From: Pseudomonadota bacterium
GTDB taxonomy: Bacteria; Pseudomonadota; Alphaproteobacteria; Rhizobiales; Pleomorphomonadaceae
Reading direction: 5' to 3'
Assembly: GCA_018262505.1 (NCBI GenBank)
Contig: JAGSYV010000005.1
Coordinates: 35,292-99,291, forward strand
DNA length: 64,000 nucleotides
How positions within the stretch are numbered: the first letter of the stretch is position 1; each line of letters opens with the position of its first letter. The translations under genes and the position numbers were made by a program. Of this stretch, positions 20,831 through 38,586 are shown piece by piece. Under the pieces are notes generated by a model. It was not told the DNA's origin. It searched no databases and worked only from the letters and a program-made list of their open reading frames with translations.

Positions 20831-21313
20831 TCAGGTGTTCGCCAGCCAGTGACCAGACTTGCCACCGCTCTTTTCGAGAAGATGGATGGCCTCGATGCGC
20901 ACGCCCTTTTCCACCGCCTTGACCATGTCATAGATGGTCAGGCAGGCGACCGAAACAGCGGTGAGCGCCTCCATCTCGACACCGGTCTTGCCGGTGCAGC
21001 GCACGGTCGCCGATACGATGATTCCCGGCAATGCCGGATCAGGCTCAAGGTCGAGCACAACCCCGGACAACGCCAGCGGATGGCAGAGGGGGATGAGGTC
21101 GGCCGTCTTCTTCGCCGCCATGATGCCGGCCAACCGCGCGGTGGCGATGACATCGCCCTTCGGCACCCGACCGTCGACGATCAGCGCCAGCGTCTCCGCC
21201 TTCATGATGACCCGACCGCTGGCGGTCGCAGCGCGCTGCGTGACGTCTTTTTCGCCGACGTCGACCATATGGGCAGCGCCCTTGTCGTCCAGGTGACTGA
21301 GACCGTCCTTCAT
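20831..21313 (-). CDS. moaC: Cyclic pyranopterin monophosphate synthase MoaC
   Basis: [62 protein letters not shown]. Confidence 0.96.
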
Positions 21314-21402
21314 AACGTGCTTTTCTCCCAGAAAATTCGGACTCGAACCGCCGGTCTCGCCGTTGCCGGCTCCAGTCTCAGACGGCAACAAGGACGAATG
21401 AA

Positions 21403-22137
21403 ATGCTCGCGACACCGAATACGCCATGCCAGCAATCGTCCATACGCACCACTTGGCATTTCCCGACCGATCTCAAGGTTCTCGCCGCCGACTACGACGG
21501 CACCCTTGCCGATCGGGGTCGGATGAGCGCGGACACCGTGGCGGCACTGCGATCCCTGCGCGCCGGCGGCTTCCGGCTGATCCTGGTATCTGGCCGGCGG
21601 CTCGACAACATCCGTCAGGTCTGTGGCGAACTCGATCTGTTCGACGCGGTTATCCTGGAGAACGGAGCCGTATCCTTCTGCCCGGCAACTGGAACCGAAC
21701 AGCTGATCGCGCCAGCCGTCGACGAACGCTTCCTGGCCGACCTGGCGCGGGAGCTGCCCGGCGAGCCATTGTTTGTCGGGCGCTCGATGGTGGCCACCGC
21801 CGCCGGCAATGCGGGCTGCGTGGAAGTGTTGATCGCGCTCGGCGGCTATGATCTTGAAGTTGTCGGCTGCGGTCGCCGGATATTGGTCTTGCCGAAGGGC
21901 ATCAACAAAAGGAGCGGTCTTTCCCACGCTCTCGCCAGTCTCGGACTGCATCGAGATCAGGTGATCGCGGTCGGGGACGAGGAAAACGACATGGAACTCT
22001 TCAAAGGCTGTGCTCTGACGGCGGCGGTTGGCAACGCCGCGCCAGAACTGAAGGCGACCGCCAATCTGGTGCTGCCGGGCGAATCCGGACAAAGCGTGCA
22101 GTGCCTTGTCGACATGCTGCTCACGACCATCCCTTGA
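21403..22137 (+). CDS. HAD-IIB (Cof-like) hydrolase
   Basis: [54 protein letters not shown]. Confidence 0.88.
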
Positions 22138-22309: not shown

Positions 22310-24097
22310 TCAGCGCAGAACCCGCAGTTCCTCCTTGAGACTTTCGATATCCGGAATGACGAAGGTGCGCGGTGTCGGCCGCTGGACATCGCCCGTCCGG
22401 ATAAGCTCTGCCAGAACCGTCGAGACCGATTGGCGCGCGGCTCCGATGGCCATGGCAAGATCATCGCCATGCGGCGCGGCATCAATGACAACCCCCGCCG
22501 AGGTCTGGCGACCATCGTGCTCGGCCATCTCGCAGAGATATCTGATCAAGCGGTAGCGCACGCTACGGAAGGCCATTTCGCCGACCATGGTCAGCGACCG
22601 GTTCAGCATCTTCTCGACGGCCGGCAGAATGCACATGCCGAACTCGGGATGGTCGCGGGTCAGGCGCCGGAACAGGGCGCGTGGGACCACGGCCGCCTCG
22701 CCCTCCTTGCGCACCTCGACCACCATCTCCGGCTGGAGCGGTACCGCGTCGCCCGGACCAAGCGTGAACAGCGTCAGTTCCTTGCCCTCGTGCGAGGCGA
22801 AACACCGATAGCGGCCTGAGGCGACGATCAGGATGGCTTCGCCGATATCGTCCATCAGATTGGCGCCGTAGACGAGTTGGCCGACCTTCATCTTACGCAG
22901 CTTCGGGCCGCCTTCGGTTTGCAGCGTCTCGAGGACCACATGCGGAAGCGCATCCTTGCCAACCGGTTCGCCAAGCGCCGGCCGCACGGGCTCGCGTTCG
23001 ATCGTTCTGCTCGGCTCGGCGCCGCCCTGGGCTTTGCGCGGCATCTGCATGCGGGCAAAGAAGGTCGATCCCTGAGCGGATTGCACCACGCACTCATCGG
23101 CTGAAGCTTGCCGCGTCACGCTGGCATGCTGCACCGAGAAGAGTTGCCGGAAATGCATGACGCCGATTGCCGACCAGCTGAGGCCGATCAACTCGATCGC
23201 CGCGCGGTTGGCGCCAACCAGACGATCGCTGTCGAAGGCCAGCAGACCCTCGTTGGGACTGCCGAGCAGACGCGGATTTGAATGCAGATGCATCTGTTCG
23301 AAGCGTCCATATCGCCGTTCGAACACTCGCCGCTCGATTTCGTTGGCGGCCCGCTTCAAGAGAGGCAGCGAGTAATCGTGCGCGACCGTGACCGACGTCG
23401 ACAGATCGATAATGCCGGCCAGGGCGCCGCACGGGTCGATGATCGGCACCGCGGAACAACTGATATCCGTATTGCCATTGCAAAAGTGCTCGGCCCCGAT
23501 GACCGATAGGGCGAAGCGCTCGGATACGGCCGTGCCGATGGCATTGGTCCCCATCGCCTGCTCGGACCAGTCGCCGCCCGCGCACAGGCCGAGCCGCTCC
23601 GCTTCATCGCTGAACGTGTTGTCGCCCAGACGGACCAGCACCACGCCGTTGGGGTCGGTCAGCACCACCACGCCACCGAGCGGCTGCGTTTCGCGACAGA
23701 GCGTGACGATTTCACCCCAGGCGGAAACCAACAGTTCCTCGTTACGCTCTCTCAGCTCCTTGAGAGCGGTTTCGGTGAGCCGCGTCTCGCTCCGTCGAGG
23801 CTTGCCGTTGACCAGGCCGTGCATGCTGCTGCGCTCCCAGGAACGCAGGATCGGCAGCGATACACCCGCGGGCACAATGCCATCGGACATGAATTTCGAG
23901 CGGACAGCCAGCAACCCATCCTGATCGGGAATGGGGCCAGGACGAATGCCGCGCTCATGTCGTCCAGATGTACTTCTGCAAGTTCCGCAGGCGGCCGGTC
24001 CCCCCGTCGGAATCGCACATGTATCGGCTTCGAGCCGTTGAGGCAGGACCATGTCAGCACCCTCCAGGGGCATCCAGCGCTGAAGTATCAAAGACAT
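22310..24097 (-). CDS. AcoR-like GAF/PAS sensor fused to Crp/Fnr-type cNMP-like domain and HTH
   Basis: GAF motifs WSEQAMGTNAIGTAVSERFALSVIGAEHF, CSAVPIIDPCGALAGIIDLS; C-terminal DDLAMAIGAARQSVSTVLAELIRTGDVQRP Crp HTH; no AAA+ or Fis HTH. Confidence 0.85.
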   Translation of the reverse strand: MSLILQRWMPLEGADMVLPQRLEADTCAIPTGGPAACGTCRSTSGRHERGIRPGPIPDQDGLLAVRSKFMSDGIVPAGVSLPILRSWERSSMHGLVNGKPRRSETRLTETALKELRERNEELLVSAWGEIVTLCRETQPLGGVVVLTDPNGVVLVRLGDNTFSDEAERLGLCAGGDWSEQAMGTNAIGTAVSERFALSVIGAEHFCNGNTDISCSAVPIIDPCGALAGIIDLSTSVTVAHDYSLPLLKRAANEIERRVFERRYGRFEQMHLHSNPRLLGSPNEGLLAFDSDRLVGANRAAIELIGLSWSAIGVMHFRQLFSVQHASVTRQASADECVVQSAQGSTFFARMQMPRKAQGGAEPSRTIEREPVRPALGEPVGKDALPHVVLETLQTEGGPKLRKMKVGQLVYGANLMDDIGEAILIVASGRYRCFASHEGKELTLFTLGPGDAVPLQPEMVVEVRKEGEAAVVPRALFRRLTRDHPEFGMCILPAVEKMLNRSLTMVGEMAFRSVRYRLIRYLCEMAEHDGRQTSAGVVIDAAPHGDDLAMAIGAARQSVSTVLAELIRTGDVQRPTPRTFVIPDIESLKEELRVLR

Positions 24098-24288: not shown

Positions 24289-25599
24289 TTACCCCTCCCC
24301 CTGGACCACCGTTACCCTGCGCTTGCGGCAAAGAGGAAAAGACGGACCAGATGCTAACCCGATAGCAACACTCATTTTTACCGATTGCAGCAGCGGGCCG
24401 GCAATTGGATGATGAAGAAGCGCGTATCGAACATCCTCGATCGTTCGTGGGTCGGCCGTCAGGATATCGACGGTAAGGCCTGCATTGCGGCCGGATCTCA
24501 GCTGGATCGAGAAATCGATCACCCCCGGAACCGCGAAGACAATGTCATCGACAATCTCCGCCGATAAGCTCCGTCCTTCTCCGACCGCAATTGGCTCGCC
24601 GATCCTCCCACCGAGCCGAAGCCGCCTGAGGATTGACCCGCAGTGACAGCGCGTTTCGACGATGCATCCGCTGTCGCCGGTGCGATAGCGAATGAGCGGC
24701 AGGCCACGGCGGCGCAAGGTACTGACGACAACCTCGCCCTCATGGCCGGCCGGCAGTACCCGACCGGTGTTCGCCTCGATAACCTCGAGATAGAGATCGC
24801 CTTCCCGGATATGCAAACCATCGTGTGCCTCGCAGGCGAGCGCACCGCCATATCCTGTTTCGGTCATGCCCCAATGTTCGAACACCTCGGTGCCCCAGAC
24901 AACCGCGAGCGCCGCCTTGAAGCTTGGCGAAACGCTGTCGGCACTGACCAGTGCCGTTTCGATGCGGAGCGATGGCCCACCATCGGCCGCCATGAGCCGC
25001 GCGACGGCCCCCAGCGTCACCGGCATGCCGGCAATCGCCACCGGTTGCAGTTCGCGCAAGGCGCCGACCAGGGTTTCCAGCGTGCCGTCGACAGGCAGCG
25101 CCACGGGAAGAGCCCCGAGTCTTGCCAGTCCGCGCATCAGGAGATCACCGACGCTGTCTGGCCGTTGGGCGGGAAAAGCCACCGCCACGCAGCTCCCCGG
25201 GCGAACGATGGTCGCCATGCCGTGCTCGAAATAGGCGACGATCGCCTCGATATCCGCCTCGGTGAAGAACAGGCGCTTCTGCCGACCTGAAGTGCCCGAC
25301 GTCGGAATGGTGACGAGACGCACCGCGTCGCGCATCGGCAAGGCGATCAGCGACGGATCATTGCGCACGAGGTCGGCCGGCGTCGTCAGGGGGAAACGGG
25401 CGATATCGCCGAGATCCTGGAGATCGCCCCGTTCCGGCCAATCGCTTCGCTGCCGGTAGAAGGGGCTTTGGGACCGCGCGTAGGCAATCGTCTCGTTCAG
25501 GCAACGAAGCTGATAGGCCTCGATATCGTCGCGGGTTGGCAGGCGATCGAGGCCGATCGTCCGCCCCACCCAAGCATCCAGCGTTCCGAACCCATTCAT
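24289..25599 (-). CDS. AMP-dependent CoA ligase, phenylacetate-CoA ligase-like (DVU_1553-like family)
   Basis: TIPTSGTSGRQKRLFFTEAD, EHWGMTETGYGGALAC, LIRYRTGDSG; start MNGFGTLDAW overlaps upstream gene by 4 bp. Confidence 0.85.
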   Translation of the reverse strand: MNGFGTLDAWVGRTIGLDRLPTRDDIEAYQLRCLNETIAYARSQSPFYRQRSDWPERGDLQDLGDIARFPLTTPADLVRNDPSLIALPMRDAVRLVTIPTSGTSGRQKRLFFTEADIEAIVAYFEHGMATIVRPGSCVAVAFPAQRPDSVGDLLMRGLARLGALPVALPVDGTLETLVGALRELQPVAIAGMPVTLGAVARLMAADGGPSLRIETALVSADSVSPSFKAALAVVWGTEVFEHWGMTETGYGGALACEAHDGLHIREGDLYLEVIEANTGRVLPAGHEGEVVVSTLRRRGLPLIRYRTGDSGCIVETRCHCGSILRRLRLGGRIGEPIAVGEGRSLSAEIVDDIVFAVPGVIDFSIQLRSGRNAGLTVDILTADPRTIEDVRYALLHHPIAGPLLQSVKMSVAIGLASGPSFPLCRKRRVTVVQGEG

Positions 25600-26993
25600 G
25601 TCGACGGCTCGCGGTAAAGCGACCGCCCCTGGAGATCGGTCAGATTGTAGGCGCAGAACGGGATAACGCGACCGTCGGACTTTGCCACATGGATATGGCA
25701 CTGGCGCAGGCGATCGAGGTCGAGCGTCCAGGCGTCCTGGAAGGCCATGCCGGACAGCGACAGGCGCTGGCTCTGCTGCTCCAGAAACGCATCGAAAGCC
25801 TCAAGACCGGCAGCCGGCATTTCCTCTTGGGGCGCCTTCGTCCATTGGCCCGCGACATAACGCTGGGCGCGGGCCACGGCCGGTGAGCGCCACGTCGTGG
25901 CTTCGCAGCATCCCGCCTCGCCGGTTGTGTTCCCTGTTTGGGAACCACAACAGCCGGTCCCCGGCTCCGGATCGGAGCGAAAGCGACCGGAACGGTCGAC
26001 AGCAAAGCGGCCACTGAAAGAACAGAAGGGATTCTCCGCCGAACCGGGACGGAAATCCTCGAGCCCAATGGCGCCGCCGGCATGCTCGATCAGCGCCTCC
26101 ATCACCTCCGGCAGGGTTATGCGGTCCTCGTCGCTGGGAGCCCGAGGATTGCGCCCGAAATACGAGACCGGCTGAAAATGGACGGCCCGCACCGTCGGCA
26201 TCTGTTGCTTGGCGAAATCGACGATGGCGCCGATCTCACCCGTGTTGACGCCGGGGACCAACGTCGGCACCAGCACCACGCCGACACCGGCCGCCCGCGC
26301 GCTCGCGATGGCGAGGCGCTTTGCCGCCAACAGGTCCCGGCCGCGCAACTGCCGATAAACGGCATCGCTGACACCGTCGAACTGCAGGAAGACGCAGTCG
26401 AGACCGGCATCGGCCAGGGCGGCAAGATAGTCGGGCTCGCGACCAATCCTGAGGCCATTGGTGTTGAGTTGGACAAAATCGAACCCCTTGGCCCGCACCA
26501 GGGCGACGACCGCGGGGAGATCATCGCGCACCGTGGGTTCACCGCCCGACAGCTGGATATGCACCTGCCCGCTGCCCGACCTCAGCTCGTCGAGGGCAAT
26601 GCCGATTTCGTCGATCGGCATGTCCACTCCATGCCGACCGGCCGAGGCGAAGCAAACCGGGCAGACAAGGTCACACCGCGACGTCACCTCGATCAGCACG
26701 CAGCATCCTTGCTGACGATGATCGGCGCAAAGCCCGCAATCCCTCGGACAGCCCTCGGCGATGTCGGTTTTGACACTGACCGGCAGAGCGGTGGCGCGAG
26801 GACTGCGGGACCAGACATCGTAACTGCGAAGCCCCCGCCATACCGGCGTAACGACGCGACCGTGCGCGGGACAGGTCTTGTCGAGGTAAACCGTGTCGCC
26901 AACGGCAAAACGCTCGGCCGGAATGGTGTCGAGGCACTCCGGGCAGACGCTACGGGTGCGTCCAAGGGACAGGCGAACGGGACCGGTCATCAT
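25596..26993 (-). CDS. Radical SAM protein (TrsS-like)
   Basis: EVTSRCDLVCPVCFASAG CX3CX2C motif; N-terminal CPECLD...CPAHG zinc-ribbon-like; HIQLSGGEPTVRDDL. Confidence 0.88.
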   Translation of the reverse strand: MMTGPVRLSLGRTRSVCPECLDTIPAERFAVGDTVYLDKTCPAHGRVVTPVWRGLRSYDVWSRSPRATALPVSVKTDIAEGCPRDCGLCADHRQQGCCVLIEVTSRCDLVCPVCFASAGRHGVDMPIDEIGIALDELRSGSGQVHIQLSGGEPTVRDDLPAVVALVRAKGFDFVQLNTNGLRIGREPDYLAALADAGLDCVFLQFDGVSDAVYRQLRGRDLLAAKRLAIASARAAGVGVVLVPTLVPGVNTGEIGAIVDFAKQQMPTVRAVHFQPVSYFGRNPRAPSDEDRITLPEVMEALIEHAGGAIGLEDFRPGSAENPFCSFSGRFAVDRSGRFRSDPEPGTGCCGSQTGNTTGEAGCCEATTWRSPAVARAQRYVAGQWTKAPQEEMPAAGLEAFDAFLEQQSQRLSLSGMAFQDAWTLDLDRLRQCHIHVAKSDGRVIPFCAYNLTDLQGRSLYREPST

Positions 26994-28150
26994 CAGCTCC
27001 CCACCAGCACCGAGGAACCGCCGACGATCATGGGGCCGAGCGGTCCGGTCACGGCCTCGACGGCATCAAGCACGGCTTCGACGGCGGCGCGGCGACGTCG
27101 CGCACCGGCCAATGCGGCGGGATTCGCAGCAAACGCGGCAAGGGCCGGCGCGAAGCGGTCTTCAAGGCTGACGCGCCGCTCCCCCTTGATCAGCTTGTCG
27201 GCGAGAAACACCAGGTGCCGTTCGTCGATCGGCTGTTCCGGCTCGAAAGCCATTTCCATGTGGGCCGCGACGATTTTGGCGACATCGGCAAAGCCGAACG
27301 CGGCAACATGCCGGGCACCCGCCAAAGCGTGATCGGGCTCGCCTTTGGCAATATCGTGAAGCAGCGCTCCGGCCCGGACGGCATCGGCGTTCATCGGCAC
27401 CCCCTTGGCAATCAGACGATCGGCGATCTCGACAGCCAGCCGAGCGACAGCGGCACAATGGCGACGAGTCGGCTCCGGCGTACCCATCGCCTCTTGCATC
27501 GCCTCGCACTCCGCTTCGTCGGGATGGTGGCGATGCGGCAATAGCGCGGCAAGGCGGCGGTAGTCGTCGGAATAGTCCATGTCACGCAATATGCCGCTGT
27601 CAATGACGGGAATGGACCGGGCGTGCTGTTGGTGTCGCTCCAGAATGTCGCGTAGCGTCACTTCCGAAGGCGCCGCGAGGATTTCGGCGAAGAGTTGCCG
27701 GCGAATGAAAGGCGGATGACCTGACTGGCCGCGAAAGGTCGGGCGAAGGATCAAGGCCTCCCCTTCCCTCGCGCCTCTGGCAATCCGGGCCAAAGTCCCG
27801 GCCCTGACGAGCGGCACGTCGACCGGCAGGATCATCACGCCTTCGACCATGTCGGGCAACGCCGCAATCCCGGCCTTGACGCTCGACATCATGCCTTCGG
27901 CGAAGGCTGCGTTGACCACCGCCACCGCGCCGTGGGCCTCGACGGCCGGAACCATCCGCGCCGCCTCGTTGCCGACGACGATGTAAGTCTGTCCGATGGC
28001 GGCCTCGGCGATGGCAGCGATCACGTGCCCCAGCACCGTGTCATTGCCAAAGGGCAAGAGCGGCTTGAACGCGCCCATGCGCGACGACCAACCGGCCGCC
28101 AGCACCACCACGGCAATGCTCGGCAGCGGCGCCCCCACCGGATCACTCAC
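26993..28150 (-). CDS. MobA/MocA-like NTP transferase fused to HD domain (DVU_1551-like)
   Basis: GTG start VSDPVGAPLPSIAVVVLAAGWSSRMGAFKPLLPFG; C-terminal RAGALLHDIAKGEPDHALAGARH HD motif. Confidence 0.87.
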   Translation of the reverse strand: MSDPVGAPLPSIAVVVLAAGWSSRMGAFKPLLPFGNDTVLGHVIAAIAEAAIGQTYIVVGNEAARMVPAVEAHGAVAVVNAAFAEGMMSSVKAGIAALPDMVEGVMILPVDVPLVRAGTLARIARGAREGEALILRPTFRGQSGHPPFIRRQLFAEILAAPSEVTLRDILERHQQHARSIPVIDSGILRDMDYSDDYRRLAALLPHRHHPDEAECEAMQEAMGTPEPTRRHCAAVARLAVEIADRLIAKGVPMNADAVRAGALLHDIAKGEPDHALAGARHVAAFGFADVAKIVAAHMEMAFEPEQPIDERHLVFLADKLIKGERRVSLEDRFAPALAAFAANPAALAGARRRRAAVEAVLDAVEAVTGPLGPMIVGGSSVLVGS

Positions 28151-28602
28151 GGCTTTTCCTCCGGCGGGAAAGCCGTGATATCGACGCCGTGATCGGCAAG
28201 CGTTTCCTTGATCTTGCCCCAAGCGGCGATGACCAGCGCCGGGCAACGCTCCCGCTTCAGGGACGCGTCGAACTTCATGATGTCGGAACAGTTGATGCCG
28301 CCATACTGACCGGTCGCGGCGGCGGTGAACCAGCCGGCAAAGTCGTCGAGCATGGCCCCCAGCTCAGGATGCTCGCGTTCGCCATCACCGCCCCGCCCGG
28401 CATAATAGCCAATGACGCAGCAGCCGGCCGATAGGGCTCCGCAATTGAACCCTTGCCCCATACCGAGGGCCAGCCCGGACATGGCCCGGACAAGACCCGG
28501 GTCGTCACGCCCCTGCGCCTCAAGGGCGAGCCGCATCAGGATGTGGCTGCACTTGAAATCGTCGAGCAGCAACTCGGCAACGCGGAAGGAGTCCTCGTTC
28601 AT
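28147..28602 (-). CDS. C_GCAxxG_C_C family protein (DVU_1555-like)
   Basis: GQGFNCGALSAGCCVIGYYAGRG...GGINCSDIMKFD. Confidence 0.82.
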   Translation of the reverse strand: MNEDSFRVAELLLDDFKCSHILMRLALEAQGRDDPGLVRAMSGLALGMGQGFNCGALSAGCCVIGYYAGRGGDGEREHPELGAMLDDFAGWFTAAATGQYGGINCSDIMKFDASLKRERCPALVIAAWGKIKETLADHGVDITAFPPEEKP

Positions 28603-29285
28603 GGGTTTGCCCTCCCTTTCGACGCCATCGGTTCGCCAGATCGCGCGGCGACGAGCAGTCGATAGCGCGGACGACCGGCCGTTTGCCCAGCGCAAGCGCA
28701 ATCGCCCCACAAGGCGTCGAGCGAACCGTAGTGGAAGATGAAGCGCGCGACAAAGCCGGCGAGCACGTCCGATCTGTCTTCGTCGTGAAGAATGACAAAG
28801 CCGGCGGCCAAAATGTCCTCGCAGAGGTCGTCTCGCCCGTCATCGCGCGGCCATTCGACGTCGGCGAGCAGCAAACGTCCCCCCGGCTTCAGCACCCGGG
28901 CCCATTCAACGAGCGCCGCACGACGGTCAGACATCAGCGACAGGCTGCATTCGGAGAGGACCGCGTCGAAACAGCCATCGGCAAATGGCAGGCGTGCGCC
29001 ATCGCCATGGAACAGCGCCGAGACGACCCGCGAAGCAGCGATCGCCAGCGTCCTTGGGTCTCGATCAACGCCAATGCCGACAAAGCCATGTTTCTCAAGC
29101 CAAACCAGGCTTTCACCGGCGCCACAACCGACATCCAATACCAACTCACCGAGACGCAGGCCGGACCGCTCGAACAGCGCTTTGACGATCGCCCCATCGC
29201 CTGGCCGCAACCGCTCGCCGGTGGCGCCCTCGACACAACCACTGCCAAACAGGCCCGGAAGTGGCAGTGACGATTTGTCCATCAC
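28599..29285 (-). CDS. Class I SAM methyltransferase (DVU_1556/TrsM-like)
   Basis: LVLDVGCGAGESLVWLEKHGFVGIGVDRDP; DAVLSECSLSLM; RVLKPGGRLLLADVE. Confidence 0.88.
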   Translation of the reverse strand: MMDKSSLPLPGLFGSGCVEGATGERLRPGDGAIVKALFERSGLRLGELVLDVGCGAGESLVWLEKHGFVGIGVDRDPRTLAIAASRVVSALFHGDGARLPFADGCFDAVLSECSLSLMSDRRAALVEWARVLKPGGRLLLADVEWPRDDGRDDLCEDILAAGFVILHDEDRSDVLAGFVARFIFHYGSLDALWGDCACAGQTAGRPRYRLLVAARSGEPMASKGRANP

Positions 29286-29488
29286 TTATCCTCCAGAGCC
29301 TGTTCGACCTTGAGCATCCGCCCGGAGGCGAGCTCCTCCGAGACATAGACGAAACCGCAAGATGGGCAGCATGGCAGCTCGACCGGGAAGGTCTGGCCGA
29401 GATAGCTCGCCTCGACCTTTCGCATTTCCAATGGCTTATCGCAGCGGGCGCAGACGAGATCGGGAATATCGCCGGAAGTACCGGTCAT
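29282..29488 (-). CDS. Small zinc-ribbon/redox protein (DVU_1557-like), 68 aa
   Basis: CARCDKPLEMRKVEASYLGQTFPVELPCCPSCGFVYVSEELASGRM; 4-bp overlaps with both neighbours. Confidence 0.82.
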   Translation of the reverse strand: MTGTSGDIPDLVCARCDKPLEMRKVEASYLGQTFPVELPCCPSCGFVYVSEELASGRMLKVEQALEDK

Positions 29489-31818
29489 GGCTTCACCTCC
29501 ACCTGCATGCGGTGGCCATAGGCGCGATGAACGACGAAGCCCGCTTCGGTCGGTTCGTATTCAACCCATGTGGTCACCGTGCCGATGCGACCGGAGGCGG
29601 TAAAATGGCCGCTGATCCGATCCTTGAGCCGACAGCCGGTCCGCTGCGCCTCGGCGATCACCTCGGCGATGTCGTCGACCAGCAACAGCTTGCACTCAAT
29701 CTCGGCCCGGACGGAGTCGGCGATAATGAGGGAAACGGACGGAACGGGATCGCTCATGCTTTCTCCCCAGAGGTCACGCCGCATGCGCCGGCTCAACCGC
29801 AGTCGATTGTCGCGACGCCCCGAGAAGCCAGGGTCGGGGCGAGCAGCGGGATCGTCGGCGTCGGGGAAGATCAGGTCAATGAGATGAAGGGCGCGCTTGC
29901 CACGCCGGGCAAAGTTGTCGCGGCACATGGCACAGTAGGCGAGATAGTCGTCATCGCTCTCCGCGATCCGCTGGTCGACGAAAGCGTTGCCGACCTCGGG
30001 ATTGGCGAAGGAGACAAGTCCGCCGTAACCGCAGCATGTGGTCTTCTCGGCGCCGGTCAGTTCGCGAACGTCGGCTCCCATCGAGGCGGCGATGGATCGC
30101 ACCGCCGCTTGAACATCATGGGCATGCCGGCTCGTACAGGGATCGTGGATGGCGAGCGATTTCACGACCGATCTCGGCACCGCGACATCCGGCAGACCGA
30201 TCGCAGCAAGCTCGGTCCAGAGCGAAGAAACCGGGATGTCCGGCAGGAATTCGCCGATCTGCTTGAGGCAAGTCGAGCAGGCCGTGACGATGCGCGGCCT
30301 CCCCTGCTCTTGCCATACGGCGTGAAGGTGATCGAGCACCTCCCTGTGCAGCGCCTTGCGCCCCGACCAATGGGCCGGCGCGCCACAGCAATCCATCATG
30401 AAACCAACGCCGCCCGGTAGACGTTCCGAGAGATAGCGATAGACAGCCTCGACCTGATGCGGCGCCGAGGCCGGCAACTGGCAACCGGGAAAGAACAACA
30501 CGGCGCTTTGGTCATGTCCCGGCTGATGGCGAACGAAGGCAACCTCGTCGGAACGACTGAAAGCCATGTCACGCAACGCGAAATCATGGTGGGAGGCGGG
30601 CATATGGCCACGCTCGACCATGCTCTGACGCGCATCGAGACAAACGTCGCCCATGGCGAGATCATTCGGACAGAGCGTCTCGCAGAGCCCGCACAAGGCG
30701 CAACTATCGATCATCCGGTTGGACTTGCGATTGCCCATGATGATCGAGTCGTTGTTGTAGATCTCGCGCACCGCCCGCTTGGGATAGGTCTTGTAGTGGG
30801 CGAGATAGGCGCACGCCTTGACGCATTCGAGGCAATGACAAGGGAAGCAGCGCGCCGCTTCGCTCATGGCCTCGGCGTGACTGTAGCCGGCGGTGGGATC
30901 GGCCGGCTCAACCGGCGGCACGGCAACCTGGCTCGCCGTGTTGACGTAAAGACATGTGCCGGTAGCATTATCGTCGGCGCGGCTCGCCGTCAGCGAGGCG
31001 CCTTGCAGAAAGCGATCGATGGAAACCGCCGCCCGCCGGCCGTCCCGAACCGAGAAGATGGCCGAATAGGTTTCATCGTCACCGGTATGAAGGCAGCTGC
31101 CGAACACCGCCGGCCGCGAGGTCGCCAGCGTGATCGGATCGAGATCAATCCGCCCGGCGGAGGTCAGACGCAATGTCCCTGCGAACGGAATGGCCGGGCC
31201 GGGACCGATGGCCAGGAGAACGGCGTCATGCGCTGCAATGAGATCGGCGAGCACAAGCAGGCCGTCGCCACCCGTCACCCTTTGGCGGCAACGGATGTCG
31301 ACGCCGAGCGATATGAGCGCGCCGAGATCGGCCTCGACCGCCGATGGCGGCAACAGGGAGGGATAGGCGTCATGGCGGAGGCGCTCAAGCGGGCGCGGTT
31401 CAGCCTCAAAAACCGTGACGGCGTGCCCCTTCATCGTAAGGTCGAAAGCCGCCGTGAGGCCAGCCAGCCCGGCGCCGACGACAGCAATTGTCTTGGGTTT
31501 GCGTGCTCGCTGAGCCGTGCGGCGAATTGTCGGATAGGCCTCTTCGACGAGCGCCCGTTCGAGCGCGCCCAAGCGGACGGCGCCACCCGCCTCGGCCCGG
31601 CGGCAGACCGCCTCGCAGGGGTGTTCGCAGATATGAGCGATGATGGCCGGAAAGGGAACAACGCGGCTAAAAAGCCCCATGGCCCCGGCGAAATCGCCGG
31701 CGGCCATCTTCTCGGCCATGCCACGCGCATCGGCGCGCAACGGACAGGCAGCGGCGCATGCCGGTGGCTGCTCCTCAATGCAGAGCGCTTCCCACGCCTT
31801 GATTTGGTCGCCATCCAT
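29485..31818 (-). CDS. Pyridine nucleotide-disulfide oxidoreductase / Fe-S dicluster-binding (HdrD-like) multidomain protein
   Basis: AVVGAGLAGLTAAFDLTMKG; CAACPLRADARG; CALCGLCETLCPNDLAMGDVC; CCG-type motifs MDCCGAPAHW and TTCCGYGGL; extra C-terminal domain. Confidence 0.85.
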   Translation of the reverse strand: MDGDQIKAWEALCIEEQPPACAAACPLRADARGMAEKMAAGDFAGAMGLFSRVVPFPAIIAHICEHPCEAVCRRAEAGGAVRLGALERALVEEAYPTIRRTAQRARKPKTIAVVGAGLAGLTAAFDLTMKGHAVTVFEAEPRPLERLRHDAYPSLLPPSAVEADLGALISLGVDIRCRQRVTGGDGLLVLADLIAAHDAVLLAIGPGPAIPFAGTLRLTSAGRIDLDPITLATSRPAVFGSCLHTGDDETYSAIFSVRDGRRAAVSIDRFLQGASLTASRADDNATGTCLYVNTASQVAVPPVEPADPTAGYSHAEAMSEAARCFPCHCLECVKACAYLAHYKTYPKRAVREIYNNDSIIMGNRKSNRMIDSCALCGLCETLCPNDLAMGDVCLDARQSMVERGHMPASHHDFALRDMAFSRSDEVAFVRHQPGHDQSAVLFFPGCQLPASAPHQVEAVYRYLSERLPGGVGFMMDCCGAPAHWSGRKALHREVLDHLHAVWQEQGRPRIVTACSTCLKQIGEFLPDIPVSSLWTELAAIGLPDVAVPRSVVKSLAIHDPCTSRHAHDVQAAVRSIAASMGADVRELTGAEKTTCCGYGGLVSFANPEVGNAFVDQRIAESDDDYLAYCAMCRDNFARRGKRALHLIDLIFPDADDPAARPDPGFSGRRDNRLRLSRRMRRDLWGESMSDPVPSVSLIIADSVRAEIECKLLLVDDIAEVIAEAQRTGCRLKDRISGHFTASGRIGTVTTWVEYEPTEAGFVVHRAYGHRMQVEVKP

Positions 31819-31857
31819 GATGGTCTCGATAGGTTGCCATTGAGCCGAATTAGGTAC

Positions 31858-31886
31858 GGGCGGCCCGGGAGAGGTCGGGCCGCCCG
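31858..31886 (-). terminator. GC-rich hairpin downstream of aldehyde oxidoreductase gene
   Basis: GGGCGGCCCG-ggagaggt-CGGGCCGCCC. Confidence 0.5.
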
Positions 31887-31891
31887 CGGTT

Positions 31892-31919
31892 TAGGGGAGC
31901 GGGCGGAAAGGCTCCCCTA
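31892..31919 (-). terminator. Second hairpin in tandem
   Basis: TAGGGGAGC-gggcggaaag-GCTCCCCTA. Confidence 0.5.
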
Positions 31920-31929
31920 TTGTCGGATC

Positions 31930-34689
31930 TCAGTTGTGCTGAAGATCCTTTTTGGCCGCGGCCGCTCCTGCCTTCGCCTCAAGCCCCATCTTAATCGCCT
32001 CAGGCAGAGCAGGAATACGGAATATCCGCACGCCGCAGGCGTTGTAGATGGCATTGAGGATAGCCGGATGAAGCGCTGTCAGCGGCGCTTCGCCGACACC
32101 GGCGGCACCGAAGGGACCGAGCGGGCGAGCGGTTTCGAGATAAAGGATCTCGATATCGTCCGGCACATCCTTCGGATAGGGAATGCCACAGTCCTTGAGC
32201 GTGGTGTGCAGGTCCAGGTCCTCGAAGTCCTCGGTCAGAGCAAGACCGATGCCCTGGGCAAGACCGCCGTAGACCTGACCGTCGACGGTAGCCTTGTTGA
32301 TGATGGTGCCGACGTCGATGGCCGTCGTCAGCTTGACCACGGACGCCTTGCCGGTCTCCACGTCGACTTCGACCTCCGGCATGAACACTTCGTACATGTA
32401 GATCGGGAACGGGTTGCCCTGGCCGGTGTCGGCCGAGCAGTCGGTGCAAGCCGCCGCCACCCACTTGCCGTCGTAGGAAAGCGGAATGTTCTCGGTCACC
32501 ATCTCCTTGTAGGTCCGATAGCTGCCGTCCGGCTTCTTCATGGCGTTGAGCAACATTTCGGCAGCGACGCGGATAGCATTGCCGCAGAAGACGTTGGAGC
32601 GACTGCCACCAGCCGGTCCACCGTTCGGCCCGAAGGTGTCGGCCATGACCAGCCCGATCTGCTCCGGCTTGACGCCGGCCACACGCAACACCTCATGCGC
32701 CATGGTCTGGGCGGAGAGATCGGCCCCCTGGCCGTGGTCTTCCCAACCCGAGTGGACGATGAAGCCGGCGGGCGTCATCTCGACACGAGCTTCCGAACTG
32801 TCAGGCCCATCGAGACCGCAGCCATAGATGCCGAGGGAAATACCGACGCCGCGCTTGGTCTCGGGAGTCGACAGTTTGGCAGCCCGCTTCTTGGCTTCCA
32901 GGTATTTCGGCCGGATCAGGTCGAACAGTTGCTTCAGAACCAGCACCTCGGGCTTCTGCCCGGTGGGTGTCGTCGACGTCTCGTTGTAGAGATTCTTGTA
33001 GCGGAACTCGAGCGGATCCTCGCCCATCTTCTCGGCCAGCATATCCATGGCGATTTCGCCGGCCAGGAAGGCCTGCGGCGAACCATAGCCACGGAAAGCC
33101 GAGCCCCAGGCGTGGTTGGTCGCAACCGTCTTGCCCTTGCCGCGGATGTTTTCGAGGTGGTAGCCGGCGCCGGTGAACTGGGCCTGGCGCAGCGTCACCA
33201 GATCGCCGAATTCCGAATAGGGGCCGTGATCCAGCCACCAATCGGTTTCCATGGCGGTGAGCTTGCCATTCTTGTCGCAGGCGAGGCGGATGTTGATGTT
33301 GGCCGGGCTGCGCTTACCGGTGTAGGTGATGTTCTGATACTGGTCGTAGACCAGCGACACCGGCTTCTTGGTGACCAACGCGGCGACGCCGAGCAGAGCT
33401 TCCATGGTCGGCGAGAACTTGTAGCCGAAGGTGCCGCCGGTGGGATTCTGGATCAGCCGCAGCTTCTCGGGAGGAATGCCGAGGCCGGGGCAGATCATGG
33501 CGTGATGCAGATGCACGCCGATCGACTTGGAGAGGATCGTCAGCACGCCGTCATCATCGACGAAGGCTTCGCCGCAGTCCGGCTCCAGATGCAGATGCGG
33601 CTGGCGCGAGCAGTAGGTGGTGATGTCGACGACGGCGGCGGCACTGGCCATCAGCGGCTTGGTGTCGGCACCCTTGACGACGCCCTGCTCGTAATAGGCA
33701 TTGGGAACGCCCGGATGGATTTCCATCGCATCTGGCGCAAGGGCGGCGAAGCCGGACATATAGGCCGGCAGCACTTCGAGATCGACCTTGACCTTCTTGG
33801 CGGCGGCGCGAGCATGTTCCTCGGTATCGGCGGCGACGATGGCAATGGCATCGCCGAACTGGAAGATCTTTTCCTTGCACAGGATCGGACGATCCCAGCC
33901 GTCACCCTTGTTGGTCGGGAAGGTGATGAGGCCGGTGATGGCGTTCTTGCCGCCGACGTCCTTCCAGGTGATGATCCGCTCGACGCCGACCATCTTCTCG
34001 GCTTCCGCCGTGTCGATGTTCTTGATCAGGGCATGGCTGACGTCGGCCTGCACCAGCGCGAGGCGCAACGTGCCGGCGGGCATCTTGAGCGCAACGTCGG
34101 CGCCAAAATCCCAGGTTCCCGTCACCTTGGCGACAGCCGACGGACGAATGTATTCGGTGCCGAGGATGGAGCCGTCCTCCTTGGGCTTCGGCATGATGTC
34201 GTAGATGGTCTTCTCGCCACGCATGATGGCAGCGGCGTCCATCACCGAGTCGATCAGCGGCTTGTAGCCGGTGCAGCGGCAGAGATTGCGGTTGCGATGG
34301 AACCAGGCGCGGACTTCCTCGCGGGTCGGGTTGAGGTTCTTGTCCAGCAAGGCCTTGGCCGACATGATGAAGCCGGGCGAGCAGACGCCGCATTGGGCAC
34401 TGCCGTGAGCCATCCAGGCAACCTGCAGCGGATGAAGATTCTCGGGGGTGCCGATGCCTTCGATGGTGACGACCTTCGAACCGGCAACCAGCTTCTCCAT
34501 CGGCGTCACGCAGGCGCGGATGGGCTTGCCGTCGATCAGCACGGTGCACGAACCGCACTGGCCGTCGGCGCAGCAAACCTTACAGCCGGTGAGCATCATC
34601 TGCTCGCGCAGCACGTCGGCGAGCGAGCGCTTCGGGTCGGCAACGACCCAGCGCTCCACACCATTCACGTTTAGAGAAATGCGTTTCAT
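31930..34689 (-). CDS. Molybdenum aldehyde oxidoreductase, D. gigas Mop-like (xanthine oxidase family)
   Basis: CKVCCADGQCGSC and CGVCSPGFIMSAKALLDKN...CRCTGYKPL [2Fe-2S] motifs; GLITFPTNKGDGWDRPILC; GPFGAAGVGEAPLTALHPA catalytic Glu motif. Confidence 0.93.
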   Translation of the reverse strand: MKRISLNVNGVERWVVADPKRSLADVLREQMMLTGCKVCCADGQCGSCTVLIDGKPIRACVTPMEKLVAGSKVVTIEGIGTPENLHPLQVAWMAHGSAQCGVCSPGFIMSAKALLDKNLNPTREEVRAWFHRNRNLCRCTGYKPLIDSVMDAAAIMRGEKTIYDIMPKPKEDGSILGTEYIRPSAVAKVTGTWDFGADVALKMPAGTLRLALVQADVSHALIKNIDTAEAEKMVGVERIITWKDVGGKNAITGLITFPTNKGDGWDRPILCKEKIFQFGDAIAIVAADTEEHARAAAKKVKVDLEVLPAYMSGFAALAPDAMEIHPGVPNAYYEQGVVKGADTKPLMASAAAVVDITTYCSRQPHLHLEPDCGEAFVDDDGVLTILSKSIGVHLHHAMICPGLGIPPEKLRLIQNPTGGTFGYKFSPTMEALLGVAALVTKKPVSLVYDQYQNITYTGKRSPANINIRLACDKNGKLTAMETDWWLDHGPYSEFGDLVTLRQAQFTGAGYHLENIRGKGKTVATNHAWGSAFRGYGSPQAFLAGEIAMDMLAEKMGEDPLEFRYKNLYNETSTTPTGQKPEVLVLKQLFDLIRPKYLEAKKRAAKLSTPETKRGVGISLGIYGCGLDGPDSSEARVEMTPAGFIVHSGWEDHGQGADLSAQTMAHEVLRVAGVKPEQIGLVMADTFGPNGGPAGGSRSNVFCGNAIRVAAEMLLNAMKKPDGSYRTYKEMVTENIPLSYDGKWVAAACTDCSADTGQGNPFPIYMYEVFMPEVEVDVETGKASVVKLTTAIDVGTIINKATVDGQVYGGLAQGIGLALTEDFEDLDLHTTLKDCGIPYPKDVPDDIEILYLETARPLGPFGAAGVGEAPLTALHPAILNAIYNACGVRIFRIPALPEAIKMGLEAKAGAAAAKKDLQHN

Positions 34690-34731: not shown

Positions 34732-35580
34732 TCAGCTGGCGGCAGAGAGAGGGGCTCCCTCTTCGCCAGCCGCACACCAGTCCATGGTCCGCGTCAGCGG
34801 GCATGCCTTGTCGACACCTCGGATGTGGGCGATCATTTCGGCGGTCACTGAGACCGCGATTTCCTCAGGCCCTTCGGCCCCGATCTCGAGACCGACCGGC
34901 GCGTGGACGCGTGCGAACGCTTCCGGAGCGAAGCCGGCGGCAACGAGATTCTTGTAGACGGTGAGCACCTTGCGCTTCGAGCCGATCATGCCGATGTAGC
35001 CGGCCGGCGTGCCGAGCGCCCAGGCGAGCGCCTCCTGATCGAGGGCGTGGCCGCGCATGGCGATGAACACCAGCGACGAGGCATTGGGCGAAAGATGCGG
35101 GGTTGTCGCCGCGAGCGGTCCGGCATGGGTGCTAGCAGCGGCGGGGAACCGCTCGGCATTGGCGAACTCGGCACGGTCATCGACGACCACCGTCTCGAGC
35201 CCCAGCGTCCGGCAGATCGTTTCGGTCATCAGGCCGACGTGGCCGCCGCCGAAAATGTAGACGGTCCGGTTGGGCATGATCGCCTCGATGTAAAACTGCA
35301 GATTTCCGCCGCAGATCATGCCGAGATCGAGCGTCGGGTTTTTGTGAAGGTCGATGGCCAGCATTTGCGACAGGCCTGATGCGATAACCTCGCGGGCGAC
35401 CATGATCGCCCTACCCTCGGCAGCCCCGCCACCGACCGTGCCGGCGATGGTGCCGTCGGCGCGCACCAGCATCTTGGCCGCCGTCGCCGAAGGCGTTGAC
35501 CCCGATTGGGTCACAATGGAAACCAGCGCGGCGCGACGACCGGCATCGCGCTCGCAGATGAGTTCCTTGTAGATATCCAT
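34732..35580 (-). CDS. XdhC/CoxI family protein
   Basis: VSIVTQSGSTPSATAAKMLVRADGTIAGTVGGGAAEG; FGGGHVGLMTETICRTLGLETVVVDDRAEFAN. Confidence 0.9.
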   Translation of the reverse strand: MDIYKELICERDAGRRAALVSIVTQSGSTPSATAAKMLVRADGTIAGTVGGGAAEGRAIMVAREVIASGLSQMLAIDLHKNPTLDLGMICGGNLQFYIEAIMPNRTVYIFGGGHVGLMTETICRTLGLETVVVDDRAEFANAERFPAAASTHAGPLAATTPHLSPNASSLVFIAMRGHALDQEALAWALGTPAGYIGMIGSKRKVLTVYKNLVAAGFAPEAFARVHAPVGLEIGAEGPEEIAVSVTAEMIAHIRGVDKACPLTRTMDWCAAGEEGAPLSAAS

Positions 35581-35943
35581 GTTGTCCTCCGGCGGCCTGC
35601 GAGACACAGCAAACCCGAACGGCCAACCGCTTTCAGCTCCTCTGCCGAACCCGAATTTCCTCCTCGGGGCGGCGCTGAACGGCGACCTGTCCATGTTGGC
35701 CAGAGTCAGCCATCGCGAGGACAAAATCTGTCCGATACAGGACTCGTGGCGCGGAAATCGCTGTCGCCTGCGCGACGGCGCCGAACGGTTCAAATGGATA
35801 AAGGGAAAAAAATTGGCGGAAAACCGCAATTTCAGAGCATTCAGCTCTCGTCCGGGCGCTGGATGCGTATGAACACGCACAGGATGGGCGCCACAGCGCC
35901 GGACGCTCGGCACTAACCCTGCCGACCGGCACGACGGGGCTTA

Positions 35944-36234
35944 TCAGCCGCCGGTCATCGGCGGAAACAGGGCGATCTCCCGCGCCGCGCCGAGCAATTC
36001 GTCCTGTTCGATGTGCAGTTGATCGACGGCGACGCGGATGGTCGACGGCGACTCCAGCGCGTAGGCATAATTGTCGCCGCGCCCGGACAGCCAGGCGATC
36101 ATCTCGCCGGCTGTACGGACGTTGTCAGGCAAGCTGAGGCGCTCGTCGGAAAGACCGATGCGTTCACGCACCCAGGCGAAATAGATGACGCGGATCTCGC
36201 GGCTCTGCGCTTCCATCGGCTCCTCCGATCCCAT
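35944..36234 (-). CDS. moaD: MoaD/ThiS family sulfur carrier
   Basis: RVIYFAWVRERIGLSDERLSLPDNVRTAGEMIAWL...EIALFPPMTGG C-terminal GG. Confidence 0.9.
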   Translation of the reverse strand: MGSEEPMEAQSREIRVIYFAWVRERIGLSDERLSLPDNVRTAGEMIAWLSGRGDNYAYALESPSTIRVAVDQLHIEQDELLGAAREIALFPPMTGG

Positions 36235-36243
36235 GTTGCGTGA

Positions 36244-37431
36244 TCAGGCTGCGACCGGCTGGGTGACATGCGCGGCCGCGATATCGTCGGCGAGGCGGTC
36301 AAGTTCGGCGAACGCCGCTTCGCGCGGCAGGCCCTTGACCATCACCGGCTCGAAGAAGGTGGCGTTCAGCTTCGGCAGCATCGACTGGACGATCTCCGGC
36401 AGATTGCCTTCCCAGCCAAAGGAGCCGATCACCGCCGCGTATTTTGCCTTGAGGCCGAGCACGTTGGCGAGAAGCGCGGCATAGGCGACACTGGGGTGCG
36501 GCCCCGACAAGACTGTCGGCGAAGCGAACACGACCGTCGATGCCTCAACGAGGCTCATGGCGAACTCGCCGGTATCGAGATCGACGACATTCATCGGCTT
36601 GACGCCGATGCCGCGCTCGACGAGCCGGTCAGTGAGATAGCCGACCATCAACGCCGTGCTCTCATACATCGACACGTAGGGAATGACGACGAAGGGCTTG
36701 GGCTCGTCGGACGTCCAGGCACGATAGAGGTCGAGGATGAACGGTGGGCGCGCATAGATCGGCCCATGGCTCGGCGCGATAAAGTCGAGGTCCAGCGCGC
36801 CGACCTTGTCGCAGGCCTCCTTCGAGAAGGACCGGTAGGGCATCATGATCTCGGCGTAATAGCGCTTGGCCGCCGTCTCGACCCGTGCCTCGTCATCGGC
36901 GTAGAGGTCGGTGGTGGCCAGGTGAGCACCCAGAAAATCGCAGGTGAAGGCGATGCGCGATTCCGGCACGTAGGTGACCATGGTATCCGGCCAGTGGACC
37001 CAGGGCGTCATCAGGAATTGCAGCGTTTTGTCACCGAGCGACAGGCTGTGGCCGTCACCGACGGTGATGAAGGCATCGCGGCTGACCGGCAGCGTATCGA
37101 GGATGAAACGCTTGCACTTGGCGTTGGTCACCACCTTGGCCTCGGGGAAAAGCTCGAGGACGGCGGGGATGGAGCCGGAATGATCCTGCTCGGCATGGTT
37201 GGCGACGATATAGTCGATCCGCTCGATGCCGGATTTCTTGATGGCAGCGATGAATTCCGCGGTTTTCGGCGGATAGATGGTATCGATCAACGCCGTCTTT
37301 TCGCTGCCCTTGATGAGATAAGCGTTGTAGGTGGTGCCTTCCGGCAGGGGCACCAGTTCGTCGAAGAGTTCTCGATCCCAATCGATTGCTCGGTAGGAGA
37401 AAATACCGTCCGTAACCTTTTGCGGGATCAT
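36244..37431 (-). CDS. FprA family A-type flavoprotein (flavo-diiron)
   Basis: NHAEQDHSGSIPAV metallo-beta-lactamase motif plus C-terminal flavodoxin domain. Confidence 0.92.
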   Translation of the reverse strand: MIPQKVTDGIFSYRAIDWDRELFDELVPLPEGTTYNAYLIKGSEKTALIDTIYPPKTAEFIAAIKKSGIERIDYIVANHAEQDHSGSIPAVLELFPEAKVVTNAKCKRFILDTLPVSRDAFITVGDGHSLSLGDKTLQFLMTPWVHWPDTMVTYVPESRIAFTCDFLGAHLATTDLYADDEARVETAAKRYYAEIMMPYRSFSKEACDKVGALDLDFIAPSHGPIYARPPFILDLYRAWTSDEPKPFVVIPYVSMYESTALMVGYLTDRLVERGIGVKPMNVVDLDTGEFAMSLVEASTVVFASPTVLSGPHPSVAYAALLANVLGLKAKYAAVIGSFGWEGNLPEIVQSMLPKLNATFFEPVMVKGLPREAAFAELDRLADDIAAAHVTQPVAA

Positions 37432-37471: not shown

Positions 37472-38524
37472 TCAGCAGCAGCCCGAAGCCTGAGCGGGAC
37501 CGGCCTGAGCGCTCGAACCGGATGGTGAGCACTCGAACCGGCCGAAATGGGTGGTCCGATCGCCATCGACGCGGAAATGACGCTTGAGGCGGCTTTCCCC
37601 GGCCATGGCGGCCGTATTGCCGCAGACCAGCATCGGCTTGCCGGTGATGAAGCGATGATGATCGTCGAGAATGAAGCTGGCGGGTGCATCCGGTACGCTG
37701 CCGAGATAGGTCGCCACCTGACCGTAGTCCTCGCAACAGTCCTCAAGGTTATCGAGCTTGAAGGTGCGAATGGTCATCGATGAGAAAGCCGTTGGGCCGA
37801 CCAGGAGTTCGACATAGGGATGGTCGAGGACGATGGCTCGCCGGGCGAGCAAGCGAACATCCAGCCAGCCGGCAGCCGCCATCAGGCGACGGAAATCTTC
37901 GACATAGAGCGCGCCGCCCAGACACTCGCCGACCAACAGCGGGTCGGTGGCAACGTCGGCCGGCAGGCGACGACTGGCAAAAACGTCTGAAAACAGCAAT
38001 TCGCCGCCCGGCTTCAGAACCCGGCGTATCTCGGCGAACACCTTCGCCTTGTCGACTGAGAGATTGAGGGCGCAGTTGGAGATCACCACGTCGACCGATC
38101 CGTCGGCGATGCCGAAGGCCGAGAGATCTTCGAACCGACCTTCAAGAAAGCTGACGTTGGATATCCTATGCCCAAAGATGCGCGCCTGTTCCGCCTGATG
38201 GTCGCGACCGACTGCCAGTTGCTCGGGCGTCATGTCGACACCGATCGACCGGCCGGCTTCCCCGACCAGAGCCGACAGCATGAACACGTCGCGCCCGGTG
38301 CCGCAACCAAGGTCAAGTACGGTCAGGCCTTCGACATCATCGGGGATCGGCGAACCACAGCCGTAGAACCGGTTCGTCACTTCGGGATGGATGGAGGAAA
38401 GAATGGATCTCAGGCGCGGCGAAAGGTGGTCGGTGGAGCAGCAGGCTCCCGTCTTCAGATCCTCTCGGCCGTTGAGCTTGGCACCGTAATAGTCCCGAAC
38501 GGTGGCCGTTACCCGGTCCATTTC
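37472..38524 (-). CDS. ArsM-like methyltransferase
   Basis: VLDLGCGTGRDVFMLSALVGEAGRSIGVDMTPEQLAVGR; ISNCALNLSVDKAKVFAEIRRVLKPGGEL; ArsM-type C-terminal region, ends SGCC. Confidence 0.82.
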   Translation of the reverse strand, partial: EMDRVTATVRDYYGAKLNGREDLKTGACCSTDHLSPRLRSILSSIHPEVTNRFYGCGSPIPDDVEGLTVLDLGCGTGRDVFMLSALVGEAGRSIGVDMTPEQLAVGRDHQAEQARIFGHRISNVSFLEGRFEDLSAFGIADGSVDVVISNCALNLSVDKAKVFAEIRRVLKPGGELLFSDVFASRRLPADVATDPLLVGECLGGALYVEDFRRLMAAAGWLDVRLLARRAIVLDHPYVELLVGPTAFSSMTIRTFKLDNLEDCCEDYGQVATYLGSVPDAPASFILDDHHRFITGKPMLVCGNTAAMAGESRLKRHFRVDGDRTTHFGRFECSPSGSSAQAGPAQASGCC

Positions 38525-38586
38525 GACCTCCCTGCCCTTGTGGCGAACCTCAGCCTGGAGCTTTCCAGGCGCCACCATCGCTCCAA

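Follow-up and report, generated by a model that had tools for sequence, protein, structure and literature searches.

The aldehyde oxidoreductase of Desulfovibrio gigas (MOP; PDB 1VLB/1SIJ) was the first structure of the xanthine oxidase family. At 1.28 Å, the crystal structure contains an ordinary molybdopterin cytosine dinucleotide (MCD), and no sulfido ligand is needed (PMC10223205). MOP has no flavin domain, and flavodoxin, the sole partner tried in vitro, is a putative partner only (PMC10223205). Here we analyzed a 64,000-nucleotide stretch (the window) of an alphaproteobacterial contig (JAGSYV010000005.1, positions 35,292 to 99,291), in which a gene for a MOP-type molybdenum aldehyde oxidoreductase (AOR) stands upstream of seven minus-strand genes. 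The seven encode a flavin/Fe-S dicluster protein (diclust), a small zinc-ribbon-like protein (zr), a methyltransferase (mt), a C_GCAxxG_C_C protein (cga), a nucleotidyltransferase-HD fusion (ntp), the radical S-adenosylmethionine (SAM) enzyme TrsS and an adenylate-forming ligase (amp).

Three other described systems resemble parts of this locus. The first is the DVU_1551-DVU_1558 neighbourhood, for which NCBIfam holds the models NF045645, NF045646 and NF045663-NF045669. All seven proteins and the AOR scored over the cut-offs of these models, whereas the window's XdhC open reading frame (ORF) scored below. The models name families, not functions, and since their numbers are consecutive, they suggest that the NCBI curators modelled the neighbourhood together. 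The second is the tetraether synthase Tes (GDGT-MAS; PDB 7TOL, MJ0619), whose four-metal-site ligand pattern and labile Met are shared by TrsS. The third is the Hdr-like sulfur-oxidation cluster with the lipoate-binding protein LbpA and its dedicated ligase (PMC6067878, PMC10332631). It is similar in logic only: one cluster brings together radical SAM chemistry, an adenylating ligase, a protein of the CCG/HdrB type and a small, conserved protein that resembles a carrier. In contrast, zr is zinc-ribbon-like, and a Pfam search found no lipoyl domain or PF03099 ligase among the seven proteins.

NCBI had already catalogued the families, and its curators were evidently aware of the neighbourhood. 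New here are the near-obligate two-way pairing of AOR and TrsS, the identity of the operon with that of mop, the split into modules, the missing NAD(P) domain of diclust, the comparison of TrsS with the Tes ligands and tyrosine, and the invariant zr terminus.

The mop operon and the pairing of AOR with TrsS

The window AOR is 60% identical to D. gigas MOP over 901 amino acids (aa) and has the same length. All eight Fe-S cysteines of MOP are kept, as are F425, Y535, Y622 and E869 (E867 in the window), so that the tested substrate-tunnel residues and the catalytic glutamate are all present. By sequence, the window AOR is a true orthologue of MOP. An Mo-MCD cofactor and aldehyde oxidation activity are predicted for it from the D. 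gigas enzyme (PMC10223205).

A search with the MOP sequence identified one sampled genome (G493) as that of D. gigas, with 100% identity over 901 residues. Its gene order is mop, a nitroreductase-like ORF, diclust, zr, mt, cga, trsS, amp and xdhC. D. gigas mop therefore heads the same operon as the window AOR, with the same downstream gene set; the nitroreductase-like ORF between mop and the dicluster gene is the difference. In this operon, mop is accompanied by a near-obligate set of seven to nine genes.

To survey the neighbourhood, TrsS was scanned in one genome per species. From 354 relatives, 80 loci were kept, which with the window gave 81 loci. Many contigs end inside the cluster, and within that limit cga was counted at 77 loci, amp and mt at 76 each, zr and diclust at 74 each, AOR at 65, xdhC at 53 and ntp at 51. 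The usual order is AOR, diclust, zr, mt, cga, (ntp), trsS and amp, with xdhC before AOR or after amp. This order was found again in Pseudomonadota, Acidobacteriota, Chloroflexota, Bacillota, Thermodesulfobacteriota, Myxococcota and Synergistota. It is far from chance and is conserved beside a MOP-type AOR in unrelated genomes. The original prediction had likened the seven genes to the DVU_1551-DVU_1558 neighbourhood beside a molybdenum aldehyde oxidoreductase; such a neighbourhood is present across seven phyla and in D. gigas itself.

The co-occurrence of AOR and TrsS was counted in roughly 680 genomes in all. Among 151 genomes of the Desulfovibrionaceae-type family, D. gigas included, 89 had both, 7 had AOR only, 3 had TrsS only and 52 had neither (Fisher p=6e-29). 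Most exceptions have a simple origin. Three genomes (G561, G578, G590) carry an in-operon TrsS whose insertions split the score, two (G602, G614) are broken contigs with TrsS fragments elsewhere, and in G505 the contig stops before the TrsS position. In G593 the AOR is cut by a contig edge, and the contigs of G477 and G464 are short. G530 is the only genuine AOR without TrsS among the seven AOR-only genomes, and its AOR contig also has no diclust or zr.

In 399 Pseudomonadota, the single genome with AOR is the single genome with TrsS. AOR was present in 38 of 40 genomes reached through TrsS loci. Among 128 Clostridia, all five genomes with an AOR over the cut-off had TrsS. The zr family (DUF7479) was over its cut-off in exactly the six of these Clostridia that have an AOR match, including one with a partial AOR (G866). 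AOR homologues below the cut-off (G981, G1006) had no TrsS and no zr or full diclust neighbour. The pairing of AOR with TrsS is near-obligate both ways, and the link of the operon to a Mop-like enzyme is stronger than the original prediction had claimed. AOR units appear to depend on the radical SAM set.

We found no published function for the operon families in the literature available, consistent with the earlier statement that no assigned pathway was known for the gene set. In the papers checked, TrsS appeared in only one table row, with no function (PMC13188914), and the DVU locus tags were mentioned only in proteomics or data tables. In a D. vulgaris transposon study (PMC10102598), the text found on such phenotypes concerns the tungsten Aor DVU1179, not DVU1559.

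Two modules and a possible service role

The set consists of two modules. Module 1 comprises AOR, diclust and zr and is duplicated; module 2 comprises mt, cga, TrsS and amp. Three independent kinds of evidence led to this division. First, zr directly followed diclust in 71 places and AOR in 6, amp directly followed trsS in 73, and at one locus (L086) mt-cga-trsS-amp and AOR-diclust-zr are separate blocks. Second, the copy numbers differ. In G855, three AOR and three zr genes accompany a single TrsS, and the second AOR-diclust-zr set of this genome (L141) stands without module 2. A Chloroflexota genome (L073/L147) combines one module 2 with additional copies of AOR, diclust and zr, and seven Desulfovibrionaceae genomes have two to three AOR and one TrsS. 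TrsS was single-copy where checked. Third, correlations of tree distances were high within module 1 (AOR-diclust 0.88, diclust-zr 0.84) and within mt-cga-trsS-amp (0.80-0.91; trsS-cga 0.91, trsS-amp 0.87). They were lower between zr and the module-2 genes (0.51-0.60; mt-zr 0.51, trsS-zr 0.52) and between AOR and the module-2 genes (0.52-0.69; AOR-amp 0.52), a contrast that is partly blurred by the choice of the best-scoring paralogues and by the correlation of diclust with both modules. Since order, copy number and tree distances all split the set, module 2 seems to be one shared set that serves one or several catalytic units.

What this service is can be asked against two other readings. In one, module 2 is a metabolic route for one aldehyde class: AOR would make the acid, amp the coenzyme A (CoA) thioester, and mt and TrsS would make or rework the substrate, the whole operon being catabolic or biosynthetic. 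Chemically, the AOR step leads into the amp step (aldehyde, acid, thioester), amp is of the PaaK type with intact adenylation motifs, and its place directly after trsS would suit such a route. Yet AORs duplicate and diversify, some beside alcohol dehydrogenases, while AORs over the cut-off almost never occur in genomes without module 2. A route dedicated to one substrate would not be expected to accompany every such AOR. Moreover, AOR and zr multiply while TrsS stays single. We regard this route as somewhat unlikely.

The other reading was the main idea of the original prediction, in which the operon makes or installs a cofactor or modification for the Mop-like enzyme. Here module 2 would directly modify or mature the AOR protein or its molybdopterin. 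The near-obligate pairing is in favor, as is the presence in the same operons of MocA-type and XdhC maturation genes, joined at some loci by NifS and MoeA-like ones; a single module 2 shared by several AORs also suits maturation. However, mop of D. gigas lies in this operon and the enzyme still carries ordinary MCD without a sulfido ligand at 1.28 Å (PMC10223205), so module 2 probably does not modify the AOR cofactor. Maturation also leaves two features unexplained, namely the extreme conservation at the end of zr and the 1:1 ratio of zr to AOR copies in G855. It is therefore an unlikely account. What stands of the earlier idea is a service role in trans, as the copy numbers indicate; the target is more likely to be the electron partners than the cofactor of AOR itself.

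Candidate electron partners and a proposed product of module 2

The FAD/Fe-S protein diclust and the rubredoxin-like zr are the obvious candidates for the missing acceptors of MOP. In diclust, sequence analysis found a GltD/StnC-like FAD domain, cubane cluster ligands and two complete HdrB-type CCG motifs (CCG x2, Fer4_20, Fer4_17), and the cysteine spacing is conserved in the alignment. Its AlphaFold model (pLDDT 87) matched NfnABC/StnABC in the PDB. The original prediction called this 777-aa protein an NAD-type oxidoreductase, a label that lacks support because the sequence has one GxGxxG motif, and the site expected for the NAD(P) domain holds a stretch of about 35 residues that is poor in secondary structure. 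No second Rossmann/NAD(P) domain was found in the sequence, and the model has no Rossmann fold between residues 201 and 237. We therefore rejected an NAD-linked, NAD(P)-dependent GltD-type diclust; what it has is one GltD-like FAD fold.

The C-terminus of zr is extremely conserved. Of 98 copies, drawn from different phyla and including duplicates away from module 2, 97 have E(D/E)K as their very last residues. The sole exception, in L053, resembles a broken frame. In the other operon proteins compared, strong conservation stops 4 to 16 positions short of the C-terminal end. Both CxxC pairs of zr are kept, and the conserved tail residues M58, V61, E62, L65 and E66 have helical spacing.

We tentatively propose a dedicated two-module aldehyde-oxidation system in which module 2 makes an organic group for the electron-transfer partners, with zr as the best candidate site. 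This is based on the ordinary cofactor of purified AOR and on zr multiplying with AOR while TrsS does not. In module 1, AOR would oxidize aldehydes at Mo-MCD, and electrons would pass to zr and to the FAD/Fe-S/CCG protein diclust; these two proteins would account for the acceptors so far missing for MOP. Module 2 would act in trans for every AOR unit of a cell. Its enzymes would jointly make, and probably attach, an organic group needed for electron transfer from AOR: amp would activate a carboxylic acid as adenylate, TrsS would form a C-S or C-C bond at an unactivated carbon via its auxiliary cluster, and mt would methylate. The group would not be a permanent part of the AOR cofactor, and its likeliest site would be the near-invariant C-terminal Glu-Asp/Glu-Lys of zr. 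The ordinary MCD would be supplied by ntp and XdhC. The direction of electron flow, the chemistry of module 2 and the choice of zr as its target are all putative. If module 2 does make a new cofactor, that cofactor is widespread, occurring in at least seven phyla, and the roles of the helper genes are now directly testable.

In a more specific form, zr would act as a carrier, with a new protein-bound redox group on its C-terminal lysine (or C-terminal residues); amp would load this group, and TrsS, mt and cga would finish it. As a carrier, zr would shuttle electrons between AOR and diclust in a lipoate-like manner, although unrelated in sequence. This form is quite speculative.

The zr tail could instead be only a docking helix for AOR or diclust, with module 2 making a free, diffusible electron carrier or another small molecule fed by the AOR reaction. 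The helical spacing of the tail, the FAD of diclust without an NAD(P) domain and the fact that HdrB-type CCG proteins act on small-molecule disulfides fit such an arrangement. A docking surface alone, however, gives no reason for the chain to end exactly at lysine, and no export or uptake gene recurs at the loci, save an ABC ATPase in 13. We consider a diffusible product of this kind improbable.

Several points weigh against our proposal of a group made for the electron partners, in addition to the blurred tree distances. Conservation of the zr tail might stem from a docking helix, with no residue being modified. We found no biochemistry of any module-2 protein in the literature, and amp is closest to CoA ligases, not to known protein-modifying ligases. 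In an incomplete clostridial genome (G866, locus L143), AOR, diclust, zr, the methyltransferase, cga and amp are present and no TrsS was detected. There are also lone AORs that have neither zr nor diclust as neighbours. At least one of these adjoins genes for an iron-containing alcohol dehydrogenase and for a sigma-54 regulator. AOR is therefore probably able to use other acceptors.

TrsS is a Tes homologue. All 81 sequences have the Tes metal-ligand motifs, i.e. the rubredoxin site C-x2-C-x20-C-x2-H and the N-terminal cluster C-x3-C-x2-C plus His, as well as the radical SAM motif and the labile Met ligand (Met439 of Tes, M416 here); additional C-terminal cysteines are likewise invariant. During C-C coupling by Tes, a C-S bond links the C-terminal cluster to the substrate (PMC9433317). 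Unlike Tes, TrsS lacks the strictly conserved Tyr459: the position is V436 in the window and mostly Val/Ile/Thr elsewhere, with no Tyr among the 79 residues listed for the 81 sequences. The window TrsS scored 339 bits against the Tes model (cut-off 450), and the genes that accompany trsS in genomes are those of the AOR system, not lipid genes. The missing Tyr459 and this gene context led us to reject TrsS as a bacterial tetraether synthase. A pterin methylase, as the name of the HMPTM zinc-ribbon family PF23545 implies, was not adopted either; later structural work could not corroborate that assignment for MJ0619 and replaced it by lipid C-C coupling (PMC9433317).

The adenylation motifs SGTSGxxK, TE and RYRTGD of amp, together with the C-terminal K426-R427, are conserved (74 sequences), and amp scored 110 bits against the PaaK equivalog model (cut-off 646). 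The four cysteines of cga are invariant in the alignment. Its AlphaFold model has an all-alpha fold (pLDDT 92), for which a fold search of the PDB gave no relative better than E=2. With 138 bits, ntp fell under the MocA equivalog cut-off of 186 and instead scored over that of the DVU_1551 model; it probably serves MCD synthesis. An XdhC-family gene is present at 53 of the 81 loci.

The locus, its ancestry and neighbouring genes

The coordinates of the features are given in Table 1. The seven ORFs (31818-24289) are intact with no internal stops. Adjacent genes overlap by 4 bp at five junctions and by 1 bp at the ntp/trsS junction (26993). The overlaps and the family assignments of the original prediction both held, with 7/7 proteins over curated NCBIfam cut-offs. 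The AOR gene lies 111 bp upstream of the set, and the functional unit reaches upstream to take in AOR and the XdhC gene.

Table 1. Features of the AOR-TrsS locus in the window, with NCBIfam scores and cut-offs.
Feature	Coordinates	Strand	Description
XdhC-type AOR maturation factor	34732..35913	-	NF045664 XdhC_rel_AOR 265 bits, under cut-off 350; true start probably further in
AOR	31930..34689	-	919-aa MOP-type molybdenum aldehyde oxidoreductase; NF045668 1551 bits (cut-off 1100); Mo-MCD and two [2Fe-2S] expected
diclust	29485..31818	-	777 aa; FAD (GltD/StnC-like, without NAD(P) domain), [4Fe-4S], two HdrB-type CCG motifs; NF045663 953 bits (530)
zr	29282..29488	-	68-aa CxxC...CxxC protein, DUF7479; NF045645 99.8 bits (60); PF24292; C-terminus ...LEDK-stop
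mt	28599..29285	-	DVU_1556-family SAM methyltransferase; NF045667 170 bits (155); Methyltransf_11
cga	28147..28602	-	DVU_1555-family C_GCAxxG_C_C protein; four invariant cysteines; NF045669 153 bits (103)
ntp	26993..28150	-	MocA-like nucleotidyltransferase fused to HD domain; NF045665 414 bits (315); NTP_transf_3 and HD
TrsS	25596..26993	-	Radical SAM enzyme, Tes homologue; NF045646 581 bits (490); PDB 7TOL E=1e-76
amp	24289..25599	-	PaaK-like adenylate-forming ligase; NF045666 378 bits (300); PDB 2y4o (PaaK) 2e-28
Probable regulator	22310..24097	-	DhaR-like sensor fused to Crp-type helix-turn-helix (HTH); related regulator at 25/81 loci

By sequence, the host genome groups with Pleomorphomonas, and the closest relatives of the window TrsS are from P. 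oryzae and P. carboxyditropha. The system was over cut-off in 14 of 14 Pleomorphomonas genomes examined and in 0 of 26 other relatives. In the midpoint-rooted TrsS tree, Pseudomonadota form one group beside Acidobacteriota, with Chloroflexota, Bacillota and Thermodesulfobacteriota across the root. The G+C content (GC) of the operon is 64.5%, compared with about 63% in the flanks. The original prediction suggested horizontal acquisition. A recent transfer from Desulfovibrio was rejected on three grounds: the Pseudomonadota TrsS are not beside those of Desulfovibrionaceae, the system is present genus-wide in Pleomorphomonas, and the GC matches the flanks. An older transfer into Pseudomonadota is possible because the system occurs in just 1 of the 399 sampled genomes.

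In the regulator (22310-24097), residues 22-246 of DhaR aligned to residues 82-307, and HTH_Crp_2 matched at 516-589. Lone AOR paralogues in Desulfovibrionaceae (L168-L172) adjoin regulators matching the same family profile, one of them a confirmed sigma-54 activator.

Some loci have unusual TrsS genes. Large insertions split the profile match in L114, L115, L118 and L123, with ORFs of about 660-705 aa in L118 and L114. Two TrsS-like genes, the second more divergent, lie close by in L121, L075 and G876:C158:6903-9291, possibly as a paired radical SAM arrangement. L143 (G866) is either a natural TrsS-less variant or an incomplete assembly.

A NifS-type cysteine desulfurase is in or near the cluster at L068:13413-14582, with similar genes in 13 loci, as would be anticipated where sulfuration depends on XdhC. 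Downstream of amp, on the same strand, lies a histidine phosphatase similar to alpha-ribazole phosphatase (L053:12433-13044, similar in 21 loci). The window operon is flanked by genes for MoaC (20831-21427), a MoaD-like protein (35944-36234), a flavodiiron-like protein (36244-37431) and an ArsM-like methyltransferase below its cut-off (37472-38578). The MoaC, MoaD and flavodiiron neighbours were found again mainly at Pleomorphomonas and Rhodocyclales loci. Upstream on the opposite strand, an 839-aa ORF (38587-41106, plus strand) had zero NCBIfam matches at 1e-30. A 1405-aa open frame antisense to AOR and diclust (30457-34674, plus strand) is probably a by-product of high GC.

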